Positions 2,807-62,986 of a stretch of 64,000 bases of DNA are shown here, one piece after another. The stretch is from Amycolatopsis sp. (GTDB lineage: Bacteria; Actinomycetota; Actinomycetes; Mycobacteriales; Pseudonocardiaceae): positions 46,096 through 110,095 of the forward strand of contig NZ_JAODNM010000089.1 in assembly GCF_025464955.1 (NCBI RefSeq). Reading direction: 5' to 3'. Below the pieces are notes generated by a model that saw only the letters and a list, made by a program, of their open reading frames with translations, searched no databases and was not told where the DNA came from. Made by a program: the position numbers and the translations under genes. Position 1 is the first letter of the stretch; the number at the start of each line of letters is the position of its first letter.

Positions 2807-3709
2807 GTGACTACCCCATTCCTCACCGACGAAGTCTCGAGCGCGCTGCACGACGGCCGCGCGATCGTCGCTCTCGAAAGCACCCTGCTCTCCCACGGCC
2901 TGCCGCCCGGCCGGAACCTCGAGGTCGCGTTGCGGCTGGAGCAGGTCGTCCGGGACGCGGGCGCGGTGCCGGCCACCATCGCGGTGCTCGACGGCCGCCC
3001 GCTCGTCGGGCTGTCGCGGGCGGAGCTGGAGCGGGTCTGCGCGCCTGACGCCGATCTCGACAAGCTGTCCCTGCGCGACCTCGGGCCGGCCATCGGCCTC
3101 GGCCGGTCGGGCGCGACGACGGTCGCGAGCACCGCGTCGCTCGCTTCGGCCGCCGGGATCGGGGTGTTCGCCACGGGCGGGCTCGGTGGCGTCCACCTCA
3201 ACGCCTCGGCCACCTGGGACGTCTCGGCCGACCTGGGCGTGCTCGCCCGGGTTCCGACGCTCATCGTGTGCTCGGGGGTGAAGTCGGTGCTCGACATCGC
3301 GGCGACGCTGGAGGTGCTCGAAACGAACTCGGTGCCGGTGCTGGGCTACCGCACCGACGACTTCCCCGCGTTCTACCTCCGCTCGTCCGGGCTGCCGGTG
3401 CCGTGGCGGGTGGAGGACCCGGCCCAAGCCGCTGCCGTCGTCGCGGCACACCGGGAGCGGTCGGATTCCGGAGTACTGCTGGCAAACCCGATCCCAGCGG
3501 AGTCCGAAATGGACAAAGAACTGCACGACCGGCTGCTCGCGGAAGGCCTCGAACTCCTGCGCACCAAGAACGTGCACGGCTCGGACGTCACTCCGGTGCT
3601 GCTGGAGCACTTCCACACCGCGAGCGGCGGCGTGAGCCTCGACGCCAACGAAGCCCTCGTGGTGTCCAACGCCCAGCTGGCCGCGGAGGTCGCGGTGAAG
3701 CTGTCATGA
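2807..3709 (+). CDS. psuG: Pseudouridine-5'-phosphate glycosidase
   Basis: VALESTLLSHGLPPGRN...ATGGLGGVHLNA...SVPVLGYRTDDFPAFY...NPIPAE motifs. Confidence 0.93.
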   Translation: MTTPFLTDEVSSALHDGRAIVALESTLLSHGLPPGRNLEVALRLEQVVRDAGAVPATIAVLDGRPLVGLSRAELERVCAPDADLDKLSLRDLGPAIGLGRSGATTVASTASLASAAGIGVFATGGLGGVHLNASATWDVSADLGVLARVPTLIVCSGVKSVLDIAATLEVLETNSVPVLGYRTDDFPAFYLRSSGLPVPWRVEDPAQAAAVVAAHRERSDSGVLLANPIPAESEMDKELHDRLLAEGLELLRTKNVHGSDVTPVLLEHFHTASGGVSLDANEALVVSNAQLAAEVAVKLS

Positions 3710-4572
3710 AGGTCATCGTCGTCGGCGACGCCGGCCTCGACATGGTGGCGCAGCACGACGGACCGATCGTCTACGGCGGCGACACCCGCGCGCAAATCGG
3801 CTTCGTCAGCGGTGGCGCGGGCGCGAACACCGCGCTATGGATGCGGTCGACAGGCGTCGACACGACGCTGATCGCCAGGATCGGCGACGACCCCGGCGGC
3901 AGGCTGATCCGCGCCGAACTCGAGTCGTCGGGGGTGCGGTGCGCCTTCGCCGTGGACGAGGAGGCTTCGACGTTCGTCGTGGTCGTGCTCGTCGACGCCG
4001 AGGGCCAGCGCACCATGCTGGCCGACCGCGGGGCCAACGCGCGTTTCGTCCCCAGCGACATCCACACGTCCGAATTCGACGGCGCGCGGCACCTGCACCT
4101 GTCCGGCTACGTGCTGCTCGACCCGTCGTCGCGGCCGGCCGGGCTGGCGGCGCTCGCCGCGGCGAAGGAGGCGGGGCTGACCACCTCGGTCGACCCTCAG
4201 GCCGCGACCCACCTCACCGATCCCGCGGCGTTCCTCGACGACGTCCGCGGGATCGACCTCCTGTTGCCGAACACCGAGGAACTGGTGGCATTGACCGGAT
4301 CCGCCGATCCGGAGTCGGCGAAGGAGTTGCTCGGCACGGTCGGCGCGGTAGCGGTGACCGCCGGGCTGAACGGGGCCAGCTGGGTCGACGCCGACGGGAT
4401 CACCACGGTGCCCGCGGTGCCGGCCCAGTGCGTCGACTCCACGGGCGCGGGCGACGCGTTCGACGCCGGGGTGCTCTCGGCATGGCTCGCCGGGGAGTCC
4501 ACGGTCGAGGTTCTACGGTCGGGCGTCCGGCTCGGCGCGTCCGCGGTCGGCAAAGTGGGCGCGCAGCCCTGA
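3706..4572 (+). CDS. PfkB-family carbohydrate kinase (probable pseudouridine kinase partner)
   Basis: PfkB signatures incl. DSTGAGDAFDAG; ATGA overlap with psuG. Confidence 0.88.
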   Translation: MKVIVVGDAGLDMVAQHDGPIVYGGDTRAQIGFVSGGAGANTALWMRSTGVDTTLIARIGDDPGGRLIRAELESSGVRCAFAVDEEASTFVVVVLVDAEGQRTMLADRGANARFVPSDIHTSEFDGARHLHLSGYVLLDPSSRPAGLAALAAAKEAGLTTSVDPQAATHLTDPAAFLDDVRGIDLLLPNTEELVALTGSADPESAKELLGTVGAVAVTAGLNGASWVDADGITTVPAVPAQCVDSTGAGDAFDAGVLSAWLAGESTVEVLRSGVRLGASAVGKVGAQP

Positions 4573-4580
4573 CTCGTGTT

Positions 4581-4922
4581 TCAGCCTTCGATGATCGGGT
4601 GCGCGGAGTTCTCGATGATCTTCGCGGGCTTCTCGTAGCGGTTGACTTCCTCCGCCTTCCGCGGCGGCCCGTCATTCGCGACGAGTACCGCGATCCACGG
4701 CAGCGGGATGGAGATCACCACGAACGCCAGCGCGAGCCACCAGGTGTGATAGAACACGCCGGCCAGTACCAGGCACGGGATCCGGAACGCCATCATCGTC
4801 ATGTACTTACGTTTCCGGGTGGCGAACTGCTCGTCGTACGACGGGGCGGCTTCGGTGATCAGCACCGGAGCGGCCTCCCGCGGCTCGGGACGCGGTTCAG
4901 GCGTCTGAGCGGGTGTACTCAC
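4581..4922 (-). CDS. DUF3099 domain-containing membrane protein
   Basis: LITEAAPSYDEQFATRKRKYMTMMAFRIPCLVLAGV. Confidence 0.8.
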   Translation of the reverse strand: MSTPAQTPEPRPEPREAAPVLITEAAPSYDEQFATRKRKYMTMMAFRIPCLVLAGVFYHTWWLALAFVVISIPLPWIAVLVANDGPPRKAEEVNRYEKPAKIIENSAHPIIEG

Positions 4923-4959
4923 GACACCACCTCCACGTTCATGCTCCCACTCTGCACGT

Positions 4960-6249
4960 TCATCCGATAGCCGGCGCGGCCAGGTACTTCAAGGCACCGG
5001 TGACCAGCGTCTCGACCCCGGTGGACAACGTCGGGTGCAGCACCGGCGCGTACAGCGGTGAGTGGTTCGACGGGATGTCGGTTTCGAACCGGCCTGCCCC
5101 CATCGCGGTCAGCACCGCCTCCGCGTCCGCGCCGCCGACCAGCCAGAACACCGAAGGCACCCCGGCAGCGCGGCCGAACTCGCTGAAGTCCTCACTGCCG
5201 GTCACCAGCGGCGCCGGCACGACGCGCTCGACGCCGAAGTGCTCACGGAAGACGTCGGTCAGCTCGCCGTTCGCCGTCTCGTCGTTCGAGGTGACGGCGA
5301 AACTGCCGATGTCCGTGATTTCGGGCGGCTTCGGCACTCCTGCCGTCTCCGCCTCGCCGAGCACGATCCGATGCACCGCGGCCAGGACCTTTTGCCGGAC
5401 CTGGTCGTCGAACGTGCGGATGTTGACCTCCAGCACACCCTGGTCGGCGATCACGTTGTTGGCTGTCCCGATGTGCACCGAAGCCACCGTGACCACCGCG
5501 GACTCGGTGGCCGCGATCTCCCGCGCCACGATCGTCTGCAGCTTCAGGATGATCGACGCGGCCAGCACGACCGGATCGACCGTGGTCTCCGGGCGCGAAC
5601 CGTGCCCGCCTCGCCCGTGCAGCACGATCCGCAGCGCGTCGGTGGCCGCCATGATCACCCCTGGCCTGGTCAGCACCCAGCCCGCCGGTCCCGGCACGAC
5701 GTGCTGCCCCAGCACGATGGCGGGTTTGCCGGCCAGCTCGAGCACACCGTCGCGGATCATGCCGCCCGCGCCGTTCCCGGTCTCCTCCCCCGGCTGGAAC
5801 ACCGCCAGCAGCGTTCCCGACCAGTTTTCGCGCCCGCCGGCGAGCAGGTCGGCCGCGCCGGAGAGCCAGGTGGCGTGCATGTCGTGCCCGCAGGCGTGCA
5901 TCACCGGTACTTCGGTGCCGTCGGCGGCGGTGGCGCGAACCGTGCTCGCGTACGGCAGGCCCGTCTTCTCCTCGACCGGCAGCGCGTCGATGTCGGCCCT
6001 GAGCAGCACCGTCGGACCAGGACCGTTGCGCAGCACCCCGACCACCCCGGTGCCGCCGACCCCGGTGTGCACCTCGAACCCGGCGTCAGAAAGCCGCCGG
6101 GCGAGCTCGGCCGCCGTCCGCGTTTCGGCAAAGGACAACTCGGGGTGACTGTGCAGGTCGAGGTAGAGCGCCTCCAGATCGGCGAGCCGGTCGGCGAGCG
6201 GGGCTAACACACTCTGCCGATGGCGAGCGAGGAGCTGTTGGGTGGTCAC
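4960..6249 (-). CDS. M20 family amidohydrolase/peptidase
   Basis: HSHPELSFAE, ADIDALPVEE, MHACGHDMHATWLSGAA, FQPGEE motifs. Confidence 0.92.
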   Translation of the reverse strand: MTTQQLLARHRQSVLAPLADRLADLEALYLDLHSHPELSFAETRTAAELARRLSDAGFEVHTGVGGTGVVGVLRNGPGPTVLLRADIDALPVEEKTGLPYASTVRATAADGTEVPVMHACGHDMHATWLSGAADLLAGGRENWSGTLLAVFQPGEETGNGAGGMIRDGVLELAGKPAIVLGQHVVPGPAGWVLTRPGVIMAATDALRIVLHGRGGHGSRPETTVDPVVLAASIILKLQTIVAREIAATESAVVTVASVHIGTANNVIADQGVLEVNIRTFDDQVRQKVLAAVHRIVLGEAETAGVPKPPEITDIGSFAVTSNDETANGELTDVFREHFGVERVVPAPLVTGSEDFSEFGRAAGVPSVFWLVGGADAEAVLTAMGAGRFETDIPSNHSPLYAPVLHPTLSTGVETLVTGALKYLAAPAIG

Positions 6250-25621: not shown

Positions 25622-27238
25622 TCACCCTTTCGCGCCGAACGCGGGTTCGTGTTCTCCGGCGTACCGGCACGCCCACGGATAGTCCGGTTTGCCGCTGGGC
25701 GAACGGCCGATCTCGTCGGCGACCCACCACGTCCGGGGGACCTTGTAGCCGGCGATCTCCGCGCGGGCGTGGGACTCGATGGCGGGGAAGTCCAGGGGCC
25801 GGCCGGGCCGTGGCTCGATCACCGCGGCAACGCGCTGGCCGAGCCGGTCGTCGGGGATGCCGAAAACGAGCGCGTCGAATACGTCCGGGTGGGACTTCAG
25901 CGCGCCCTCGACCTCCTCCGGATAGACCTTCTCGCCTCCGGTGTTGACGCACTGCGAACCGCGGCCGAGCAGCGTGACCGTGCCATCCGCTTCGTATCGC
26001 GCGTAGTCACCGGGAACGACGTAGCGGACGCCATCCAGCTCGACGAAGATCGTCTTGCTCTTTTCCGGGTCGTTGTAGTACCCGAGCGGGACGTGTCCTC
26101 GCCGGGCGATCAGGCCGACAGCGCCGGCCGAAGGCTCGACACGGCGGCCCAGTTCGTCGAGGAGGACGGCGTCTTTGCCGAAACTGACCCGGGGGCCTGC
26201 CGAATGGTCGGCGTCCTTGCTCACCATGCCGATCCCGGTGAAGCCGCTCTCCGAGGCGCCGATGGCGTCGGTGATCACGACATGGGGCAGGGTCCGGAGG
26301 AACTCCTGCTTGACGCTCTGGGAGAACAGCGCGGCATGGCTGGACACCGCGACCAGCGACGAGGCGTCGTAGGAGCCTTCGGCGTAGGCCTCGATCAGGG
26401 GGCGTGCCATCGCGTCCCCGACGATCGTCAGCACCTGGACGCTATGGTCCTGCACGGCCCGCCACACGTCGTGCGCGTCGAACCGCGGCACGAACACCAC
26501 CGGGCTGCCGGTGAACAGCGCGCCGAACGCGGCCCACTGCGCCGCGCCGTGGATCAGCGGTGCCGCCGGGAGCCGCACCAGGCAGCCCGCCTTGCCCTGC
26601 TCAGACAACGTCCATTCGTCCGCCACGTACTCGCCGGTGACGAAGTTGATGCCGCCGCCGAGTGCGCGCCAGATGTCCTCGTGGCGCCAGAGCACGCCCT
26701 TGGGATAGCCGGTGGTACCGCCGGTGTAGAGGATGTACAGGTCGTCAGCGCTGCGTTCGCCGAAGTCGCGATCCGGCGAGCCTTCTGCCAACGCCGTCTC
26801 GTAGTCCACGCCGCCGTAACCCGAGTAGTCGGCGCCGCTGCCGTCGTCGATGACGACAACGTGTTTCACTTTCGGCGTCTCGGGCAGGACACCGGCTACC
26901 TTGTCGGCGTACTGCCGTTCGTGGACGAGCGCCACGAGGTCGGCGTCGGTGAACAGGTGCCGGAGCTCCGGGTGCACGTAACGGTAGTTGACGTTGACGG
27001 CGACGGCTCGCAGCTTGTACGCCGCGATCATCGCTTCGACCGTCTCGATGGAGTTTTTGGCGTATACGCCAACATGCGAACCGCGGCTCACACCATGGGC
27101 CGCGAGGTGGTGCGCCAGGCGGTTGGCGCGTGCTTCAAGTTCGGCGAAGGTGACCCGCCGGTCGCCGCAGATGACCGCGACGCGGTCCGGCACGGCGTCG
27201 ACGGCGTGCTCGATGAGGTCCGCGATGTTGAGTGCCAC
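25622..27238 (-). CDS. fadD19: Steroid side-chain acyl-CoA synthetase, FadD19-like
   Basis: [72 protein letters not shown] closely follows mycobacterial FadD19; alternative ATG at 27256 lies inside an operator-like palindrome. Confidence 0.85.
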
Positions 27239-27248
27239 CCGATCAAAG

Positions 27249-27262
27249 TAGAACATGTTATC
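27249..27262. promoter_or_regulatory. KstR-like operator (site 1)
   Basis: TAGAACATGTTATC, 7/8 fixed positions of TnnAACnnGTTnnA, in fadD19/echA19 divergent gap. Confidence 0.6.
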
Positions 27263-27297
27263 GTTCTGGGCAAACATCCCGGGCGAAGGATGACGAA

Positions 27298-28086
27298 ATG
27301 GCCGAACCGCACGCACTGGTCGACAAGCGCGAGCACACACTGGTGGTGACGATGAACCGCCCGGCCGCCCGGAACGCGCTGACCGGCGAGATGCTGTCGA
27401 TCATGACCGCGGCCTGGGATCAGGTCGACGCCGATCCCGAAATCCGCGTGTGCGTCCTGACCGGCGCGGGGGGCTCGTTCTGCGCGGGCGCGGACCTGAA
27501 GTCGATGGCCGGCAACTCCCCGGGCGACGCGTACGAGCGCGGCGCCTTCGACCCGTCGCGGATCGAAGGACTGCTCAAGGGCCGGCGGCTCACGAAACCG
27601 CTGATCGCCGCGGTCGAGGGCGCGGCGATCGCCGGCGGGACCGAGATCCTGCAAGCCACGGACATCCGCGTGGCCGGGGAAAGCGCGAAGTTCGGCGTGT
27701 CCGAGGCGCGCTGGGGCCTGTTCCCGATGGGCGGCTCCGCGGTCCGGCTCCCCCGGCAGATCCCGTACACGGTGGCCGCGGACCTCCTGCTGACCGGACG
27801 GCACATCACCGCCACCGAGGCGAAGGACATCGGCTTGATCGGTCATGTCGTACCGGACAACTCGGCGCTGGACTACGCGCTGGGGCTCGCGGACCAGATC
27901 GCGGCCAACGGCCCGCTGGCCGTTTCGGCGATCCTGCGGACGATGCGCGACACCGAAGGCATGCCGGAAGAAAAGGCGTTCGACGTCGAATCACGCTACG
28001 GAATCGAAGTGTTCACCAGCGAAGACGCCAAGGAAGGACCGCGCGCCTTCGCCGAACATCGCAAACCGCGCTTTCAGGGGAAGTAG
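27298..28086 (+). CDS. echA19: Enoyl-CoA hydratase, EchA19-like
   Basis: Crotonase fold ([17 protein letters not shown]); divergent from fadD19 as in Rv3515c/Rv3516. Confidence 0.83.
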
Positions 28087-28249
28087 GCCACCGGCGGCAC
28101 CAAGATCGTTCAAGATGGCCGGATTCTTGACCGCGTGTCTCCGCGGGCCTACTCTGAGCACTGTTCGTAAGTAAAGTTTCCTAACTACCTACACCAACTA
28201 CTTCGGGGTGCTCGTTTTGACGGCGGCGGCGTGAGCAACCCGGGGAAAC

Positions 28250-28288
28250 GTGCGCTGGACGGAACGCTCGAAGTTCCGTTCAGCGCAC
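28250..28288. terminator. Bidirectional terminator between convergent genes
   Basis: 16-bp arms GTGCGCTGGACGGAAC/GTTCCGTTCAGCGCAC (one G-U), 7-nt loop. Confidence 0.7.
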
Positions 28289-29827
28289 CCCATCCGCCAA
28301 GTACTGCTCGCGGAGCTTCCGCTTGTACAGCTTCCCGTTGGGGTCGCGCGGGAGTTCGGCGACGTAGTCGACGGTCTTGGGCAGCTTGAACTTCGCGAGC
28401 CGGCCGCGGGCGAAGACGAGGAGTTCCGCGGTGAGCTCGTCACCGCCTTCGACCCCCGGCGCGGGTTGCACAACGGCTTTGATCTCCTCACCCCAGTCGG
28501 CATGCGGAATACCGAACACCGCCACGTCGGCGACCTTGGGGTGGGTGATCAGCTCACCTTCGATCTCCGCCGGGTAGATGTTCACCCCGCCGGAAATGAT
28601 CAGATCCGCTTTCCGGTCGTGCAGGAACAGGTAACCGTCCTCGTCGAGATGGCCGACGTCGCCGAGCGTGAACAGGTCGCCGACCCGCGTCTGCTCGGTT
28701 TTCTCCCGGTCCTTGTGGTACTCGAACCGCGAGTCGCCCATCTTCAGGTAGACCGTGCCGATCTCCCCCGGCGGTACCGCCGAGCCGTTGTCGTCGAGCA
28801 CTTTGACGGTCGAACCCGGCCACGGTGTGCCGACGGATCCCGGTTTCCGCAACCAGTCCGCGCCGGTGATGACCGTGCCGCCCCCTTCGGTCGCGGCGTA
28901 GTACTCCGTGACAACCGGGCCCCACCAGTCGAGCATCCGGCGTTTGACCTCAAGCGGGCAAGGCGCGGCGCCGTGGATCATGACACGCAGCGACGACAGG
29001 TCGTAGCGCTCGCGCACCGGCTCGGGCAACGCCAGCAGACGCCTGAACTGCGTCGGCACGAGGTGGCTGTGTGTCACGCGGTGCCGCTCGATCAGCCGCA
29101 GCGCTTCCTCGGAATCCCAGCGGTCCATCAGCACCGCGGTATGGCCGAGCTGGATCGAGATCGCGACGAAGTTGAGCACGGCCGTGTGGTAGAGCGGGGA
29201 GCCGCAGAGGTGCACGTGTCCGTCGAACGGCTTGAGCCCGAAGATCCCGAAGAACCACGTCGACGCACCGGGAACCTGATCGGGGTCGGCGCCCGTGAGC
29301 GGACGCCGGACGCCTTTCGGCCGGCCCGTCGTGCCGGAGGTGTACAGCATCGGCGAGCCCGCGGTGCGCTCGTTCGGGCGACCATCGCCCTCCCCCGCGC
29401 CGAGCTCCTCTAGGCGGCGGAAGCCGTCGATGTGTCCGGCTGCGAATCGCGCGCGGACAGGGATGCCGGCTTCGTCGGCCGCCGCGACGGCCACCTCGGC
29501 GAAGCGTTCGTGTGCGAGGAACGCCTTGGCGCCGCTGTCCGCGAGAATGTACGCGACCTCAGGCGCGATCAGGTGCCAGTTGACGACGACGATGTACAGC
29601 CCGGTCTGCAGGGCTGCGAACTGCGCTGCCAGGAGCTCGACCCCGTTCGGCTGCAGGACGACGATTGCGTCGCCGGTTTCGAGACCGAGCGACCGCAAGC
29701 CACGCGCGTACGCGTTGGCCTTCGCGGCCAGCTCGCCGTAGCCGACCTCTCGACCGTCCGGCTCGACGACAGCCGTGCGCTCCGGTTCGCCGGCGGCGAT
29801 GGTCCACAGTCCCAGCGAGGTGTCCAT
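28280..29827 (-). CDS. Acyl-CoA synthetase (FadD family)
   Basis: SPMLYTSGTTGRPKGVRRP; EYYAATEGGG; DRKADLIISGGVNIYPAEIE. Confidence 0.9.
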   Translation of the reverse strand: MDTSLGLWTIAAGEPERTAVVEPDGREVGYGELAAKANAYARGLRSLGLETGDAIVVLQPNGVELLAAQFAALQTGLYIVVVNWHLIAPEVAYILADSGAKAFLAHERFAEVAVAAADEAGIPVRARFAAGHIDGFRRLEELGAGEGDGRPNERTAGSPMLYTSGTTGRPKGVRRPLTGADPDQVPGASTWFFGIFGLKPFDGHVHLCGSPLYHTAVLNFVAISIQLGHTAVLMDRWDSEEALRLIERHRVTHSHLVPTQFRRLLALPEPVRERYDLSSLRVMIHGAAPCPLEVKRRMLDWWGPVVTEYYAATEGGGTVITGADWLRKPGSVGTPWPGSTVKVLDDNGSAVPPGEIGTVYLKMGDSRFEYHKDREKTEQTRVGDLFTLGDVGHLDEDGYLFLHDRKADLIISGGVNIYPAEIEGELITHPKVADVAVFGIPHADWGEEIKAVVQPAPGVEGGDELTAELLVFARGRLAKFKLPKTVDYVAELPRDPNGKLYKRKLREQYLADGVR

Positions 29828-29837
29828 CCCACAAATC

Positions 29838-29851
29838 TAGAACGTGTTCCA
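29838..29851. promoter_or_regulatory. KstR-like operator (site 2)
   Basis: TAGAACGTGTTCCA, exact match to TnnAACnnGTTnnA, just upstream of the fadD start at 29827. Confidence 0.65.
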
Positions 29852-29893
29852 TGCGAGGCGCAACCGTCTCGGGCCTACCATTGCGGACAATTC

Positions 29894-29907
29894 GAGAACG
29901 TGTTTCA
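29894..29907. promoter_or_regulatory. KstR-like operator (site 3)
   Basis: GAGAACGTGTTTCA, 7/8 fixed positions, just upstream of the DUF35 protein start at 29916. Confidence 0.6.
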
Positions 29908-29915
29908 CTTCGAAG

Positions 29916-30878
29916 ATGACCGGTATCGAAGCGCCCCTCTCCGCGCCGCTCGACGTCGGCTTCGACTACACGCGCTCGCTCGGGCCGGTCCTCGGCCGGT
30001 TCGCCGACGGCCTGCGGCACCGCCGGATCGAGGGCATCCGAGGCAGCGACGGCCGGATACACGTGCCGCCCGTCGAGTACGACCCCGTCGACGCCGCGCC
30101 GCTGGACGAGTTCGTCCCGGTGGCCGACGAAGGAACCGTCCTCTCCTGGTCGTGGGCACCGGAACCCCTTGACGGACAACCGCTTTCCCACGCGTTCGCC
30201 TGGGCCCTGATCCGGCTGGACGGCGCGGACACCGCGTTGCTGCACGCGGTCGACGCCGGCGATCCTGAGCATGTCCGCAGCGGTATGCGGGTGCGCGCCC
30301 GATGGGCGGCCGAACCGGTCGGCCACATCCGCGACATCGTCTGCTTCGAGCCGGCGGACAGGCCCGAGAAGCCCCAGCCCCCGGTGCGCGACGGCGAGCC
30401 GGTCACCAGTGTGATCACCCCGATCCACCTGCGCTACCAGCACTCCGTCTCCCCCGAGGAAAGCCGCTACCTGCGCGCGCTGGGGGAAGGACGGCTGATC
30501 GGCCAACGCTGTCCGGCCTGCGAGAAGGTCTACCTCCCGCCACGCGGCGCGTGTCCCACCGACGGCGTGCCGACCACCGACGAGGTCGAACTCCCCGACA
30601 CCGGCATCGTCACGACGTTCTGCGTGGTCAACGTCCCGTTCCTCGGCCAGCGCATCAAACCGCCGTACGTCGCCGCGTACATCCTGCTCGACGGCGCGGA
30701 CATCGCGTTCCTGCACCTCGTGCTCGGCTGCGACGCGGCCGACGTCCGCATGGGACTGCGTGTCCGCGCCCAGTGGAAGCCCCGGGACGAATGGGGGACT
30801 TCATTGGAGAACATCGACCACTTCGAGCCGACCGGTGAACCGGACGCGCCCTACGCGTCGTTCGCCCACCACCTCTAG
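29916..30878 (+). CDS. Tandem OB-fold/DUF35 protein, Rv3521-like
   Basis: C-terminal copy has zinc ribbon CPACEKVYLPPRGACPTDG plus OB domain; N-terminal copy lacks cysteines. Confidence 0.83.
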   Translation: MTGIEAPLSAPLDVGFDYTRSLGPVLGRFADGLRHRRIEGIRGSDGRIHVPPVEYDPVDAAPLDEFVPVADEGTVLSWSWAPEPLDGQPLSHAFAWALIRLDGADTALLHAVDAGDPEHVRSGMRVRARWAAEPVGHIRDIVCFEPADRPEKPQPPVRDGEPVTSVITPIHLRYQHSVSPEESRYLRALGEGRLIGQRCPACEKVYLPPRGACPTDGVPTTDEVELPDTGIVTTFCVVNVPFLGQRIKPPYVAAYILLDGADIAFLHLVLGCDAADVRMGLRVRAQWKPRDEWGTSLENIDHFEPTGEPDAPYASFAHHL

Positions 30879-30887
30879 GAGTCGTCC

Positions 30888-31943
30888 ATGGCCGAAGTCG
30901 CGATCGTGGGATTCGCCCAGGCGCCGAACGTGCGGGCGAGCACCGGGACGACCAACGGCGTCGAGCTGCTGGTGCCGATCTTCGCCGAGGTCTTCGCGCG
31001 CACCGGACTGTCCAAATCGGACATCGGGTTCTGGTGCTCGGGTTCCTCGGACTACCTCGCGGGGCGCGCGTTCTCGTTCATCGCGGCGGTGGACGCGATC
31101 GGTGCCGTCCCGCCGATCCACGAATCGCATGTCGAGATGGACGCGGCCTGGGCGCTTTACGAAGCCTGGCTGAAGATCCGGATGGACGAGGTCGACACCG
31201 CGCTCGTGTACGGGTTCGGCAAGTCGTCGGCCGGGGACCTGCGCCGAGTCCTCGCCCTGCAGCTCGACCCGTACGTCGTCGCGCCGCTCTGGCCGGATCC
31301 GGTGGCCATCGCCGGGATCCAGGCACGGCTCGGACTGGAAACCGGGCTCTGGACCGAACAGGACATGGCCGGGGTCGCGGCGCGCAGCCGGACCGACGCC
31401 GTCGGCAACAGGTTCGCGCAGGTAAGTGGCGAGGTCGACAGCGCCGAGCTCCTCGACACCCCGTACGTCGCCGATCCCTTGCGTGCCCACGACATTCCGC
31501 CGATCAGCGACGGCGCGTCGGTCATCGTGCTGGCGTCGGTCGACCGTGCCCGCGAGCTCGTGGAACACCCTGCCGTGATCACCGGGATCGAGCATCGCGT
31601 CGATTCACCGGTGCTCGGCGCACGCGATCTGACCCGCTCGGCGTCGACCGAATCCGCCGCGCGCGGCCTCGACCTCGACGGCGTCGAGATCGCCGAACTG
31701 CACGCTCCGTTCACCCACCAGGAGCTGATCCTGCGCTCGGCCCTCGGCCTCGGTGACGACGTGCGGATCAACCCGTCCGGCGGCGCCCTCACCGCGAATC
31801 CGATGTTCTCCGCCGGTCTGGCGCGCATCGGCGAAGCAGCCGACCGGATCCTCAACGGTCAGGCACGCAAAACCCTCGCCCACGCGACGAGCGGGCCCGC
31901 CCTGCAACAGAACCTCGTCGCCGTGCTGGAAGGGATCGGCTGA
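30888..31943 (+). CDS. ltp4: Thiolase-fold lipid-transfer protein, Ltp4-like (Rv3522)
   Basis: Thiolase-superfamily fold, LHAPFTHQELI, NPSGGALTANPMFSAGLARIGEAA; follows the DUF35 gene as in Rv3521-Rv3522-Rv3523. Confidence 0.78.
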   Translation: MAEVAIVGFAQAPNVRASTGTTNGVELLVPIFAEVFARTGLSKSDIGFWCSGSSDYLAGRAFSFIAAVDAIGAVPPIHESHVEMDAAWALYEAWLKIRMDEVDTALVYGFGKSSAGDLRRVLALQLDPYVVAPLWPDPVAIAGIQARLGLETGLWTEQDMAGVAARSRTDAVGNRFAQVSGEVDSAELLDTPYVADPLRAHDIPPISDGASVIVLASVDRARELVEHPAVITGIEHRVDSPVLGARDLTRSASTESAARGLDLDGVEIAELHAPFTHQELILRSALGLGDDVRINPSGGALTANPMFSAGLARIGEAADRILNGQARKTLAHATSGPALQQNLVAVLEGIG

Positions 31944-33106
31944 TGGGCAAGCAACTCGCCGCGGTACTCGGCACCGGCCAGACACACCACCGGGCCAAAC
32001 GACTCGACGTCTCGATGCCCGGCCTGCTCCGGGAAGCCATCGACCGCGCGATGCTCGACGCGCAGGTGGGGTGGGACGAGATCGACGCCGTCGTCCTCGG
32101 CAAAGCGCCCGACCTGTTCGAGGGCGTCATGATGCCGGAGCTGTTCCTCGCCGACGCGCTCGGCGCGACCGGAAAGCCGCTGCTGCGGGTGCACACCGCG
32201 GGTTCGGTCGGCGGGTCGACCGCGCTCGTGGCCACGTCGCTCGTGCAGGCCGGGATCCACCGGCGGGTGCTGACCGTCGCGTTCGAAAAGCAGTCGGAGT
32301 CCAACGCGATGTGGGGCCTGTCGATCCTGCCGCCGTTCCAGATGCCGGTCGGCGCGGGCGCGGGCGGGTACTTCGCCCCGCACATCCGCTCCTACATCCG
32401 GCGGTCCGGCGCGCCCGAGCACATCGGCGCGATCGTGGCCGCGAAGGACCGCCGCAACGGCGCACTGAACCCGTACGCCCATCTTCGGCAGGCGGACATC
32501 ACCGTGGAATCGGTGCGGGCGTCCAAGATGCTGTGGGACCCCATCCGGTACGACGAAACCTGCCCGTCGTCGGACGGCGCCTGCGCGATGGTGATCGGCG
32601 ACGAGGCCGCGGGGGACGCCGTGCCGGGCGGCGCCGCGTGGGTCCACGCCACCGCGATGCGCACCGAACCGACCACCTTCTCCGGGCGCGACCAGGTCAA
32701 CCCGCAGGCCGGCCGGGACGCGGCGGCCGAGCTGTGGAAGCAGGCGGGGATCACCGACCCGCTGTCCGAAGTGGACGTCGCCGAAATCTACGTGCCGTTC
32801 TCCTGGTTCGAGCCGATGTGGTTGGAGAACCTGGGTTTCACCGCCGAAGGCGAGGGCTGGAAGGTCACCGAGGCCGGAGAGACGGCGCTCGGCGGACGCC
32901 TGCCCGTCAACCCGTCGGGCGGGGTGCTGTCGTCGAACCCGATCGGCGCATCCGGCATGCTCCGGTTTTCCGAGGCGGCGAAACAGGTCATGAGCCGTGC
33001 GGGCGACTACCAGGTCGACGGCGCTCGCATCGCCCTCGGCCACGCCTACGGTGGCGGCTCGCAGTATTTCTCGATGTGGGTAGTGGGCCGCGACAAACCG
33101 GCCTGA
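31943..33106 (+). CDS. ltp3: Thiolase-fold lipid-transfer protein, Ltp3-like (Rv3523)
   Basis: VHTAGSVGGSTALVA, NPSGGVLSSNPIGASGMLRFSEAA, ALGHAYGGGSQYFSMWVV. Confidence 0.82.
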   Translation: MGKQLAAVLGTGQTHHRAKRLDVSMPGLLREAIDRAMLDAQVGWDEIDAVVLGKAPDLFEGVMMPELFLADALGATGKPLLRVHTAGSVGGSTALVATSLVQAGIHRRVLTVAFEKQSESNAMWGLSILPPFQMPVGAGAGGYFAPHIRSYIRRSGAPEHIGAIVAAKDRRNGALNPYAHLRQADITVESVRASKMLWDPIRYDETCPSSDGACAMVIGDEAAGDAVPGGAAWVHATAMRTEPTTFSGRDQVNPQAGRDAAAELWKQAGITDPLSEVDVAEIYVPFSWFEPMWLENLGFTAEGEGWKVTEAGETALGGRLPVNPSGGVLSSNPIGASGMLRFSEAAKQVMSRAGDYQVDGARIALGHAYGGGSQYFSMWVVGRDKPA

Positions 33107-33109
33107 GCG

Positions 33110-33925
33110 TCAGGCGAGGGCGATGAGGGTGGTGCCGTCGTCCTCGGGGAGTTCAGGCTCGGCGGTGACGAGGACGGTGCTGCCGAGGAACTCGATCTCG
33201 CTGCCGAGGGTGGCGAGGAACGCCGTGTCCGCCGCGTCACGTCCGGTCGCGATGCGGGTCAGGCTCTGCCGCGGCGCCAGGCCGGTCGCGTCGAACACGT
33301 ACCAGTGGCCGTCGATCGCCGCCTCGAACACGGCATGGAAGTCCATCGGGGACAGTCCCGGCGCGTAGACGGCCACGAACCGTGTCGGGATGTCGACCAC
33401 CCGGCACAGCGAAATACACAAATGCGCGAAGTCGCGGCAGACGCCTTGGCCCTCGAGCAGGCTGTCGATCGCGTCGTCGTTCGGGCCGCCCGCGCCGATG
33501 ACGTACCCGAGGTTCTCGGCGACGTACCGGACGATCGCGTCGACCTGTGCGCGCACGTTCGGTAGCGAGCCGAACCGCGCCATCGCGAGCCCGCCCATGC
33601 GGTCGGACGGGCAGTACCGGCTGGGACGGGTGTAGGTGACGAGGTCCGCGCCGGTGAGTTTCTCCGGCACGGCCGGGCCGAGTTCGCGCTCGGCCCGGTA
33701 CCGCACGGAGTACTCCCCCAGCGGCAGGTCCACGATGTGCGCGCGGGTGCGGTGCTCGAACTCGACGGCCTCGGGCACAAAGCCGGGACCGGACGTCTGA
33801 AAGGAGTTGAGGAAAAGGAGCTCCTCGGTCTCGGCCCGGTCCGCGACGGCCACCGAAAAGACCATCTTGCCGGGCTTGGTCACGCGCAGGGTGAGTTCGA
33901 CATCGATCAGGCAGCGCGGGGTCAT
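33110..33925 (-). CDS. Transglutaminase-like domain protein
   Basis: Cys-His-Asp triad context GQGVCRDFAHLCISLCR .. MDFHAVFEAAIDGHWYVFDAT. Confidence 0.88.
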   Translation of the reverse strand: MTPRCLIDVELTLRVTKPGKMVFSVAVADRAETEELLFLNSFQTSGPGFVPEAVEFEHRTRAHIVDLPLGEYSVRYRAERELGPAVPEKLTGADLVTYTRPSRYCPSDRMGGLAMARFGSLPNVRAQVDAIVRYVAENLGYVIGAGGPNDDAIDSLLEGQGVCRDFAHLCISLCRVVDIPTRFVAVYAPGLSPMDFHAVFEAAIDGHWYVFDATGLAPRQSLTRIATGRDAADTAFLATLGSEIEFLGSTVLVTAEPELPEDDGTTLIALA

Positions 33926-33952
33926 CGCCCCATCATCCCCCGCGACGTCGAG

Positions 33953-35179
33953 TCACGAGTACTTGCACTGATAATGTTTGATGCCGTTGAGCCAGCTCGA
34001 CCGCAGCCGCTCCGGCGGGGAGAGCTCGCTGATGTCGGGCATCGTCTTCGCTAGCGCGCTGAAGATGAGGTCGATTTCGAGCCGGGCGAGGTTGGCGCCG
34101 ATGCAGTAGTGCGAGCCCGTGCCGCCGAATCCGACGTGCGGGTTGTCCTTCCGCAGGATGTCGAACCGCTCCGGACCGTCGAACACCTCCGGGTCGAAGT
34201 TCGCCGAGCTGTAGAACATCCCGACGCGGTCACCGCGGGCGATCCGCTGGCCGCCGAGCACGGTGTCCCTGGTCGCGGTGCGCTGGAAGGACACGACCGG
34301 GGTGGCCCAGCGGACGATCTCGTCGGGCGCGGTCTTCGGCCGCTGCTCCTGGAAGATCTTCCACTGGTCGGGGTGGTCGATGAACGCCTTCATGCCGTGG
34401 GTGATCGCGTTCCGGGTCGTCTCGTTGCCGGCGACGACGAGCAGGATCACGAAGAACCCGAACTCGTCGGACGCCATCGACTCGCCGTCGATATCGGCTT
34501 GGATGAGCGTGGTGACGATGTCGTCCATCGGGCACTTGCGCCGCTCTTCGGCCATGTTCCAGGCGTAACCGGCGATCTCCGCCGAGGCCGCGAGCGGTTC
34601 GACGTCGTATTCGGGGTCGTCGTAGGCGACCATCTGGTTGGACCAGTCGAAGATCTTGAGCCGGTCCTTCTGCGGGATGCCGAGCAGCTCGGCGATGGCC
34701 TGCAAGGGCAGTTCGCACGCGACGTCGGTGACGAAGTCGCCGGAGCCCTTCGCCTTGGCGTCGTGAACGATCCGCTCAGCTCGCTCGCGCAAGGCGTCTT
34801 CGAGCTTCGCGATGGATTTCGGGGTGAAGCCCTTCGAGACGACGCGGCGGAGCTTCGTGTGCTGGGGCGCGTCCATGTTGAGCAGGACGAGCCGGTTGGC
34901 GTTGAGGTTGTCCTCGGTCATGTGCTCGTCGAAGCGGATGATCGCCGTCTTCTCGTGCGAGGAGAAGAGCTCGGTGTTGCGTGAGACCTCTTTGACGTCC
35001 TCGAGCCGGGTGACGACCCAGTAGCCGTCGTCTCCGAAGCCGGCGAGGTTGCGTCGCTGTGGATTCCACCAGACCGGCGCGGTCTTCCGCAGCCGCGCGA
35101 ACTCCTCCACCGGCAGTCTCGTGGCGTACAGGTCCGGGTCCGTGAAATCGAAACCGGTCGGGAGCAGCGGAGCGACCAC
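33953..35179 (-). CDS. cyp125: Cytochrome P450, CYP125 (steroid C26-monooxygenase)-like
   Basis: VAGNETTRNAITHGM, EIVRWATPVVSFQRTA, HVGFGGTGSHYCIGANLARLE, C-terminal WLNGIKH; divergent from FadA5. Confidence 0.88.
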   Translation of the reverse strand: MVAPLLPTGFDFTDPDLYATRLPVEEFARLRKTAPVWWNPQRRNLAGFGDDGYWVVTRLEDVKEVSRNTELFSSHEKTAIIRFDEHMTEDNLNANRLVLLNMDAPQHTKLRRVVSKGFTPKSIAKLEDALRERAERIVHDAKAKGSGDFVTDVACELPLQAIAELLGIPQKDRLKIFDWSNQMVAYDDPEYDVEPLAASAEIAGYAWNMAEERRKCPMDDIVTTLIQADIDGESMASDEFGFFVILLVVAGNETTRNAITHGMKAFIDHPDQWKIFQEQRPKTAPDEIVRWATPVVSFQRTATRDTVLGGQRIARGDRVGMFYSSANFDPEVFDGPERFDILRKDNPHVGFGGTGSHYCIGANLARLEIDLIFSALAKTMPDISELSPPERLRSSWLNGIKHYQCKYS

Positions 35180-35196
35180 GACGACCTCCCTGTCGT

Positions 35197-35210
35197 TGAA
35201 ACACGTTCTA
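35197..35210. promoter_or_regulatory. KstR-like operator (site 4)
   Basis: TGAAACACGTTCTA, exact match to TnnAACnnGTTnnA, upstream of cyp125. Confidence 0.65.
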
Positions 35211-35361
35211 CAGCTGATTAGAGCATACGGTGTTAACTAAGTGAAGAGTCTTGGGTGATACCCGTTTACTTCACCGATCGAGAAGACGAAAGCGCTGGTC
35301 GGACCAGTTTTGACAGGGAGTGATCAAATACCGCCCAGCCCAGGGAGTCCTTGCCAAAAAT

Positions 35362-35375
35362 AGTAACGTGTTCTA
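35362..35375. promoter_or_regulatory. KstR-like operator (site 5)
   Basis: AGTAACGTGTTCTA, 7/8 fixed positions, 10 nt upstream of fadA5 start. Confidence 0.6.
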
Positions 35376-35376
35376 G

Positions 35377-36516
<1,140 letters not shown>

Positions 36517-38347: not shown

Positions 38348-38361
38348 ACCAAGCAAGTGCT
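38348..38361. promoter_or_regulatory. Partial KstR2-like operator in SDR/echA20 divergent gap
   Basis: ACCAAGCAAGTGCT versus AnCAAGnnCTTGnT (second half-site degenerate). Confidence 0.45.
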
Positions 38362-38386
38362 AGGTTTGTAACCCGAAGAGGCGCGA

Positions 38387-50193: not shown

Positions 50194-50802
50194 CTACCTT
50201 CTCTTCGCGGGCCGCCTCTTCGTCGCGATACCGTCCAGCAAGATGCCGAGGTACTGCTCCGCGACGGCCTCGGCCGACAATGCGCCGTCGGGGTTGTACC
50301 AGCGCACCGCCACCCACACGGTGTCGCGGATGAACCGGTACACCAGCTCGATGTCGAGATCCGCGCGGAAGACGCCGGCTGTGACGCCGTCGGTCAGAAT
50401 CCCGTTCCACAGTGCGCGGAACTCGGCGTTGCGGTCGTTGAGGTAGGCGAACCGCGGCAGCTGCATGAGGTGCTTGGCCTCGCTCTGGTAGATCGCGACC
50501 TCGGCCGGACGCCGGTGGATCGACTCGAACGACGCCGCGACCACGGCTTCCAGCGTCTCCCGTGGACTCTGGCCGGCCGCGAGGATCTCGGCGTAGGTAC
50601 CGAAAAGCTCGTCCAGGAACCCGGTGAGGATCTCTTCGGCCATCGACTCCTTCGAGTCGAAATGGTGGTACAGGCTGCCGGACAGGATGCCCGCGGCGTC
50701 GGCGATGTCCCGCACGGTCGTCGAGACATAGCCGCGCTCGGCGAACAGACTCGCCGCCAGCGCCAGCAGTTCCGCTCGCCGGGAGCCGGTGGACGTCTTC
50801 AT
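50194..50802 (-). CDS. kstR2: TetR-family regulator KstR2-like
   Basis: SRRAELLALAASLFAERGYVSTTVRDIADAAGILSGSLYHHFDSKESM...LVYRFIRDTVWVAVRWYNPDG. Confidence 0.88.
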   Translation of the reverse strand: MKTSTGSRRAELLALAASLFAERGYVSTTVRDIADAAGILSGSLYHHFDSKESMAEEILTGFLDELFGTYAEILAAGQSPRETLEAVVAASFESIHRRPAEVAIYQSEAKHLMQLPRFAYLNDRNAEFRALWNGILTDGVTAGVFRADLDIELVYRFIRDTVWVAVRWYNPDGALSAEAVAEQYLGILLDGIATKRRPAKRR

Positions 50803-52764: not shown

Positions 52765-52778
52765 ACCAAGCACTTGCT
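52765..52778. promoter_or_regulatory. KstR2-like operator in fadE30/fadD3 divergent gap
   Basis: ACCAAGCACTTGCT, exact match to AnCAAGnnCTTGnT. Confidence 0.75.
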
Positions 52779-61992: not shown

Positions 61993-62986
61993 TGAGGTGA
62001 TCTCATCAACTTTCAGTTCAGGCGGCCGTGTTCGAAATGGGTGAGTACGAGTGCGGCTTTGACGATGGTGCCGATCCTGCGGGGGCTGGTGGTGATGTGG
62101 CGGAGTGCTCGCCAGCGGCCGATGAGGAGCGCGAAGGCGCGTTCACCGAGGCAGCGCAATCCTCGGAGCAGGGCGTTGTAGGTGCGGTTGTCTACATCCA
62201 ACACTTGGCTACCGGCGGGTTGTTTGATCGGTGTGTGCACACCGATCCCGGTGCCGGTGTAGCCGCCGTCAGCCAGCGTGGGCAGGTCCAGATGGGAATA
62301 GGCCCAGTACAAGGCGCCGAGTACATGTTCTCGGGCCGCGGTGATGTCGTGAGTTGAGCCCGGCTCGACCTCGGAGCACCAGAGTGGGAACCCGTCGGGT
62401 TCCATCAGCGCCTGGACGTTTCCGCCCTGTTCGCGGTGTTTGCCGGAGTACCAGGCGTCGATCTGCTCGCCCTTGACGCTGGTGGCCTGCTCGCCGAGCC
62501 GATCGCAGGTGAACAGTTTGCCGTCCAGGATCAGGTGTGTCAGCCCGTCGTCTTTGGCGCGCTGCAACGCTTCGTGCAGGTCCGGGGCTTGGTTGGCGAG
62601 CACCTCGATGACCTCGTCCAGATAGCGGTAACCGGTCGCCCGCGAGATACCGCAGTCCCGTGCCAGTGCGGGCACGTCCCGGCCTTCCCGAAACCAGCGC
62701 AATCCGAACACCGCGTGCTGAAAGCAGGTCAACGCGCGGCTGCGGCGTCGGGTACCTCGCGCGCGACGCTCGGCGTTGAGGAGCTGGCTGAGGTACTGGG
62801 CGAGTGCGCGTGGCACGTCGAGCATGGCACGATAGGCGATCACGTGGAGTCCTTCGGGCGAAGATCACTTTGGCGAGCGTTCTTCTACCAGGGACTCCAC
62901 GTCCGTCTTTACACCGGATCCCCTGCCGCCACCCGGATCCAGCGTCACCCGGCCCAAGCTGACCCGATCTTGGTGAGATCACCTCA
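61993..62986. mobile_element. IS5-like insertion sequence
   Basis: 17-nt terminal inverted repeats TGAGGTGATCTCA(T/C)CAA at both ends (one mismatch; outermost base uncertain), enclosing one DDE transposase; no clear target-site duplication. Confidence 0.8.
62013..62843 (-). CDS. IS5-like DDE transposase (HTH_Tnp_4 + DDE_Tnp_4 type)
   Basis: LARDCGISRATGYRYLDEVIEVLA; LILDGKLFTCDRL; YSGKHREQGGNVQAL; STHDITAAREHVL; LADGGYTGTG. Confidence 0.87.
   Translation of the reverse strand: MIAYRAMLDVPRALAQYLSQLLNAERRARGTRRRSRALTCFQHAVFGLRWFREGRDVPALARDCGISRATGYRYLDEVIEVLANQAPDLHEALQRAKDDGLTHLILDGKLFTCDRLGEQATSVKGEQIDAWYSGKHREQGGNVQALMEPDGFPLWCSEVEPGSTHDITAAREHVLGALYWAYSHLDLPTLADGGYTGTGIGVHTPIKQPAGSQVLDVDNRTYNALLRGLRCLGERAFALLIGRWRALRHITTSPRRIGTIVKAALVLTHFEHGRLN

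Follow-up and report, generated by a model that had tools for sequence, protein, structure and literature searches.

Whether the steroid side-chain genes of an Amycolatopsis strain (NCBI assembly GCF_025464955.1) are controlled as in mycobacteria by the repressor KstR, and how its operators would be placed relative to their promoters, was examined in a window of 64,000 nucleotides (contig NZ_JAODNM010000089.1, positions 46,096 to 110,095, forward strand). An earlier note had reported five KstR-type palindromes in three gaps between divergent genes. The five 14-mers were confirmed at starts 27249, 29838, 29894, 35197 and 35362, and they match, in that order, 7, 8, 7, 8 and 7 of the 8 fixed positions of the KstR core. 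One lies in the fadD19/echA19 gap, and the fadD-type/Rv3521-like and cyp125/fadA5 gaps hold two each. The evidence presented below indicates that these palindromes are very probably the operators of the genome's own KstR, one per side-chain promoter, at which the protein would repress by occupying the promoter.

27249 to 27262, minus strand: predicted KstR operator of fadD19, reading GATAACATGTTCTA toward fadD19; edge 10 nt from the GTG at 27238; 20.1 bits
29838 to 29851, minus strand: predicted KstR operator of the fadD-type ligase gene; edge 10 nt from the ATG at 29827; 25.0 bits, the best of the window
29894 to 29907, plus strand: predicted KstR operator of the Rv3521-like OB-fold gene; edge 8 nt from the ATG at 29916; 17.7 bits
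35197 to 35210, minus strand: predicted KstR operator of cyp125 (GTG at 35179); conserved in 20 genera, at a variable distance from the start; 23.5 bits
35362 to 35375, plus strand: predicted KstR operator of fadA5; edge 10 nt from the ATG at 35386; 16.9 bits

Operators and regulator

Because the loose core from the literature detects sites poorly, a symmetric matrix was built from 43 distinct published mycobacterial KstR sites (Kendall 2007, Table 3, PMC1995591) and used to scan the 64-kb window; genome-wide counts were pattern matches, with the reversed pattern as control. The five sites were the top five matrix matches in the window (16.9 to 25.0 bits). At the lowest of these scores, 16.9 bits, 0.04 matches per window were expected by chance in first-order Markov sequences, and 0.003 in sequence of intergenic length and composition. 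With up to one mismatch, TNNAACNNGTTNNA showed mild enrichment in the window (13 matches vs 5.6 ± 2.3 in shuffles). Exact matches to the loose core TnnAACnnGTTnnA numbered 57 genome-wide against 52 for the reversed control, a count that barely exceeds the control, so that the loose core alone is little proof. This lack of enrichment would fit an origin of the palindromes as chance matches in AT-rich promoter DNA, an explanation to which we give practically no credence: it was refuted by the matrix expectation and by the recurrence of all five sites in the orthologous gaps of about 20 genera, where each keeps its own conserved imperfections (the Rv3521-like operator, for example, its imperfect half GAGAAC) while the flanks diverge.

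An equal motif density elsewhere in the genome, named by the earlier note as a refuting result, was not seen: the half-site AGAACRYGTT gave 87 matches vs 25 for its reversed control. The surroundings of most of these matches were examined, with genes called by a codon-usage script. Strong non-coding sites nearly all preceded steroid genes or genes for F420-dependent oxidoreductases. The steroid genes concerned were kstR/fadE34, a 3-ketosteroid dehydrogenase, a second FAD-binding dehydrogenase and hsaA, and a further strong site preceded an operon that opens with two acyl-coenzyme A (acyl-CoA) dehydrogenase genes and is igr-like by gene order. Two F420-dependent oxidoreductase genes also had such sites upstream. 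Many AGAACRYGTT matches were discounted as sites, being located inside genes, and GAGAACGTGTTCCA at C104:71265, which codes for a protein end, was taken as a chance match.

The earlier note had found no kstR gene in the window and had predicted regulation from elsewhere in the genome. The window indeed contains no kstR gene, and a search for an orthologue, the test that had been named beforehand, yielded a single full-length KstR on another contig (C119:68576-69142, minus strand). The protein scored 332.7 bits against the NCBIfam equivalog NF033703 (cut-off 280), is 61-62% identical to M. tuberculosis KstR (Rv3574) and has a strongly conserved DNA-binding region. Its gene is divergent from a gene for a FadE34-like two-domain acyl-CoA dehydrogenase, as in mycobacteria.

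L009, 2571 to 3203, minus strand, and 3353 to 5425, plus strand: kstR and fadE34-like gene pair, the second with acyl-CoA dehydrogenase domains; TGAAACACGTTCTA in the gap

A second KstR-type site in this gap, TGGAACAAGTTCCG (L009, about 3222-3235), lies about 32 nt upstream of kstR, stands downstream of a conserved TANNCT hexamer and recurs in most relatives.

The family was surveyed in 61 genomes from 47 genera, in which kstR was counted when it exceeded the NF033703 cut-off. The genes kstR, echA19 and the Rv3521-like gene occurred together in the same 30 of the 61 genomes and were all absent from the same 31. AACRYGTTCTA had on average 16.3 matches in kstR-positive genomes vs 3.9 in kstR-negative ones (Mann-Whitney p 9e-11, a value that overstates independence since the genomes are related), and its reversed control 3.3 and 2.6, respectively. 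One kstR-negative genome (G028), only 86% complete, had 13 matches and carried fadA5 with both operators.

These data also bear on whether the sites might instead be bound by another TetR paralogue of similar specificity to KstR. More than 50 proteins of the genome matched the KstR query, mostly in the DNA-binding domain, which would leave room for such a protein; yet the best match is the full-length equivalog, at 61% identity, and the next reaches only 29%. The strong conservation of the KstR DNA-binding region, the KstR sites in the kstR promoter and a site excess that tracks kstR presence across the family likewise make a paralogue very unlikely.

By profile, the fadD19-like gene, echA19, fadA5 and the ChsH2-type OB-fold gene are orthologous to known KstR targets.

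25622 to 27238, minus strand: fadD19-like acyl-CoA synthetase gene (NF005863, 777 bits)
27298 to 28086, plus strand: echA19 enoyl-CoA hydratase gene (NF051848 EchA19, 426.5 bits, cut-off 400)
28280 to 29827, minus strand: fadD-type acyl-CoA ligase gene with AMP-binding domains; FadD4-like, under the cut-off of the FadD4 model
29916 to 30878, plus strand: Rv3521-like gene with ChsH2-type zinc ribbon and OB-fold (PF12172, PF01796)
33953 to 35179, minus strand: cyp125-type cytochrome P450 gene (P450 family matches), divergent from fadA5
35386 to 36516, plus strand: fadA5 steroid 3-ketoacyl-CoA thiolase gene (NF005889, 656 bits, cut-off 515)

The cyp125 label was assigned from the position beside fadA5 together with P450 family matches, rather than from a CYP125-specific profile.

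Position of the operators within the promoters

The earlier note had described the sites of the two gaps with a pair of palindromes as close to the start codons. That description stood, with the refinement that promoter geometry, and not mere proximity to a start codon, sets the positions of the sites. At four of the five sites, the operator looks to occupy the spacer of a leaderless-looking promoter, flanked by a conserved TTGNNN box and the -10 hexamer.

27245 to 27273, minus strand: predicted fadD19 core promoter; -35 TTGCCC at 27268-27273, spacer 17 bp, -10 TACTTT at 27245-27250
At operator 29838 to 29851, minus strand: predicted promoter of the fadD-type gene; -10 TAGATT, TTGCGC at spacer 18, both read from the sequence
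29881 to 29886 and 29904 to 29909, plus strand: predicted Rv3521-like promoter; -35 TTGCGG, -10-like TTCACT, spacer 17
35351 to 35356 and 35374 to 35379, plus strand: predicted fadA5 promoter; -35 TTGCCA, -10 TAGTTT, spacer 17

At fadD19, most of the spacer is taken up by the operator, whose final TA forms the first bases of the -10 hexamer. Of the 20 genera in the family set, 19 had TTG at spacer 17 and all had a TANNNT hexamer; the edge-to-start gap was 10-11 nt in most genomes. Named genomes from several orders, a set that partly overlaps with the family set, had TTG at spacer 17-18 in 19/22 genera, TANNNT in 22/22 and the start codon 10-12 nt from the operator edge in 21/22; the layout was kept in Mycobacterium, Rhodococcus, Nocardia, Gordonia, Pseudonocardia, Streptosporangiales and others.

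The other promoters showed related regularities. For the Rv3521-like gene, the offset of TTGC was the same in 17 of 20 genera, corresponding to a 17-bp spacer to TTCACT, and the start codon was 8-9 nt from the operator edge in most genomes. At fadA5, TANNNT was present in 19/21 genera and TTG at spacer 17-18 in 17/21. At the fadD-type gene, TTG stood at spacer 17 in 8 of 14 genera, and the hexamer had its final T in 11 of 14. The mRNAs are probably leaderless, because the start codon falls about where transcription should begin. At fadA5, nearly all relatives, including two congeners that were examined, kept a leader with a Shine-Dalgarno sequence; leader and Shine-Dalgarno were seemingly lost in the lineage of this strain and in G058.

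A mechanism consistent with this geometry would start from KstR as a TetR-type repressor supplied by the gene on the other contig. At fadD19, the fadD-type gene, the Rv3521-like gene and fadA5, its operator would occupy the spacer between TTGNNN and -10 and overlap the latter, so that the KstR dimer, once bound, would exclude RNA polymerase. Its release would then be brought about by an early metabolite of the side chain, either a steroid acid or its CoA thioester. The cyp125 operator stands further downstream, ahead of the Shine-Dalgarno sequence AGGGAGG that separates it from the GTG at 35179, and would probably cover the transcription start.

This last arrangement, together with the second kstR operator, which is likewise downstream of its predicted promoter, might suggest that KstR mostly covers transcription starts or acts as a roadblock instead of occupying spacers. 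Such a general mode of action is improbable, given the constant spacing between TTG box and operator that most genera show upstream of fadD19, fadA5 and the Rv3521-like gene.

Three points weigh against KstR operators acting by promoter occupation. One fixed core position is missing in three of the five sites, the cyp125 promoter could not be placed in the sequence, and the TAGTTT edge could in part be extended operator rather than a -10 hexamer, in keeping with mycobacterial sites that often continue with AGTT. Counter to the extended-operator reading, in 12 of 16 genera the fadE34 operator retains TANNNT although it lacks the GTT extension.

A possible second promoter and a second conserved element

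The operator at 27249 is perhaps common to fadD19 and echA19. It fits fadD19 far better, because its distance to fadD19 is fixed and that to echA19 varies across genomes. The arm facing echA19 reads NNTAAC (GAT, AGT, AAT or GGT before AAC) in 20/20 family genera and 21/22 named genera, and on the reverse strand this arm gives an outward TANNNT in nearly all cases (41 of 42 rows). In the equivalent register at other operators, an outward TANNNT occurred in only 0 to 3 of 14-21 genera. The NNTAAC arm may thus hold a -10 hexamer for echA19, in which case one operator would serve both genes.

27259 to 27264, plus strand: possible echA19 -10, TATCGT, inside the fadD19 operator; weak, without a -35 box

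No -35 box at a proper distance for echA19 was found in the gap sequences of either genus set. In line with this, the non-consensus NNTAAC half may instead have been kept for tuning the affinity of KstR, a reading that we give nearly an even chance and with which the site-specific imperfect halves of other operators, such as GAGAAC at the Rv3521-like gene, are consistent. All four variants, as well as the mycobacterial TGTAAC, nevertheless preserve the outward TANNNT, which pure tuning would not predict.

A separate element, distinct from the KstR sites, is conserved in the cyp125/fadA5 gap.

35232 to 35270, no strand assigned: conserved non-KstR element, GTTAACT at 35232-35238 and GTGATACCCGTTTACT at 35255-35270, from an alignment of 17 genomes

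GTTAACT and an inverted repeat near GTGAAnCCnGTTWACT were conserved in at least ten genera. In nine genomes, GTGAWNNCNGTTWACT occurred exactly once per genome, in the cyp125/fadA5 gap, and the distance between the cyp125 and fadA5 operators is exactly 165 bp in nine genomes belonging to six genera. Palindromes like GTKAACNCCGTTWAC elsewhere in the family were all intergenic, upstream of P450, GMC oxidoreductase and TetR/MMPL genes, and point to a possible uncharacterised regulon. In six genomes (L269, L271, L272, L275, L276 and L280), such a palindrome separates a TetR gene (TetR_C_33) from an MMPL transporter gene. The best matches of that TetR in the Amycolatopsis genome and its relatives had promoters without the palindrome, with one partial exception, and none could be linked as regulator to the copy at 35232-35270.

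Together, these patterns suggest a tentative proposal, which we regard as somewhat more likely to be wrong than right: that the fadD19/echA19 operator works throughout the class as a two-way switch with an outward -10 in each arm, and that a second regulator controls cyp125/fadA5 via 35232-35270. If true, a single KstR dimer would shut two opposed promoters, one leaderless and the other leadered. The extra conserved element between the cyp125 and fadA5 operators makes a further regulatory layer open to testing.

Further features of the window were recorded. Profile matches identified two genes for thiolase-like lipid-transfer proteins. A kstR2 orthologue is located at 50194-50802 on the minus strand (235 bits to PDB KstR2), an exact KstR2-type palindrome, ACCAAGCACTTGCT, at 52765-52778 in the acyl-CoA dehydrogenase/fadD3 gap, and a KstR2-type palindrome with one mismatch at 38352-38365, upstream of echA20. 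With the kstR2 orthologue and these palindromes, the window therefore covers both steroid regulons. A DDE transposase gene (Pfam DDE_Tnp_4) lies at 62013-62675, close to the right end.

Comparison with known KstR systems

In M. tuberculosis, KstR motifs positive in electrophoretic mobility shift assays have been described in the Rv3515c/Rv3516, Rv3520c/Rv3521 and Rv3545c/Rv3546 gaps (Kendall 2007, PMC1995591). Because the same three gaps are already known to be bound there, the Amycolatopsis cluster is best regarded as a new member of an ordinary KstR regulon. The same study reported that the KstR site overlaps the -10 region and described one palindrome in the mycobacterial kstR/fadE34 gap. 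The Amycolatopsis system resembles the KstR (Rv3574) regulon of M. tuberculosis and M. smegmatis in repressor family, motif, target gaps, kstR-fadE34 divergence and -10 overlap. It differs in that the Rv3521-like and cyp125/fadA5 gaps hold two operators each instead of one, and in that a second conserved operator is present close to kstR in the kstR/fadE34 gap. In addition, a fadD-type ligase gene replaces Rv3520c opposite the Rv3521-like gene.

Steroid induction has been studied in Saccharopolyspora hirsuta, a member of the same family (PMC9782250). At the kstD3 promoter of R. ruber Chol-4, two KstR boxes surround a promoter between opposite clusters, and a leaderless mRNA was suggested (PMC5348764). 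That system concerns kstD, whereas the Amycolatopsis sites belong to side-chain genes. The KstR2 regulon has a different motif and comprises ring C/D genes; no KstR2 motif was present at the five KstR sites. For one KstR-dependent promoter, that of MSMEG_5228, work by Uhia from 2011 reportedly found a leaderless mRNA and a KstR footprint on the -10 and -35 boxes. It involves another gene in another organism, and the layout in Amycolatopsis was seen at four promoters of one cluster. No report of a leaderless fadD19 was found in the literature searched, and the details of the layout go slightly beyond the published accounts that were found.

If the predicted operators act as proposed, the mycobacterial cholesterol side-chain regulon would hold in this actinobacterial family down to single operators. 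The comparison would also provide a layout rule, with the operator in the promoter spacer, two bases common with the -10 hexamer and the start codon some ten bases further on. Such a rule should be a better guide to regulated promoters than the loose motif from the literature, which alone was not enriched in this genome.

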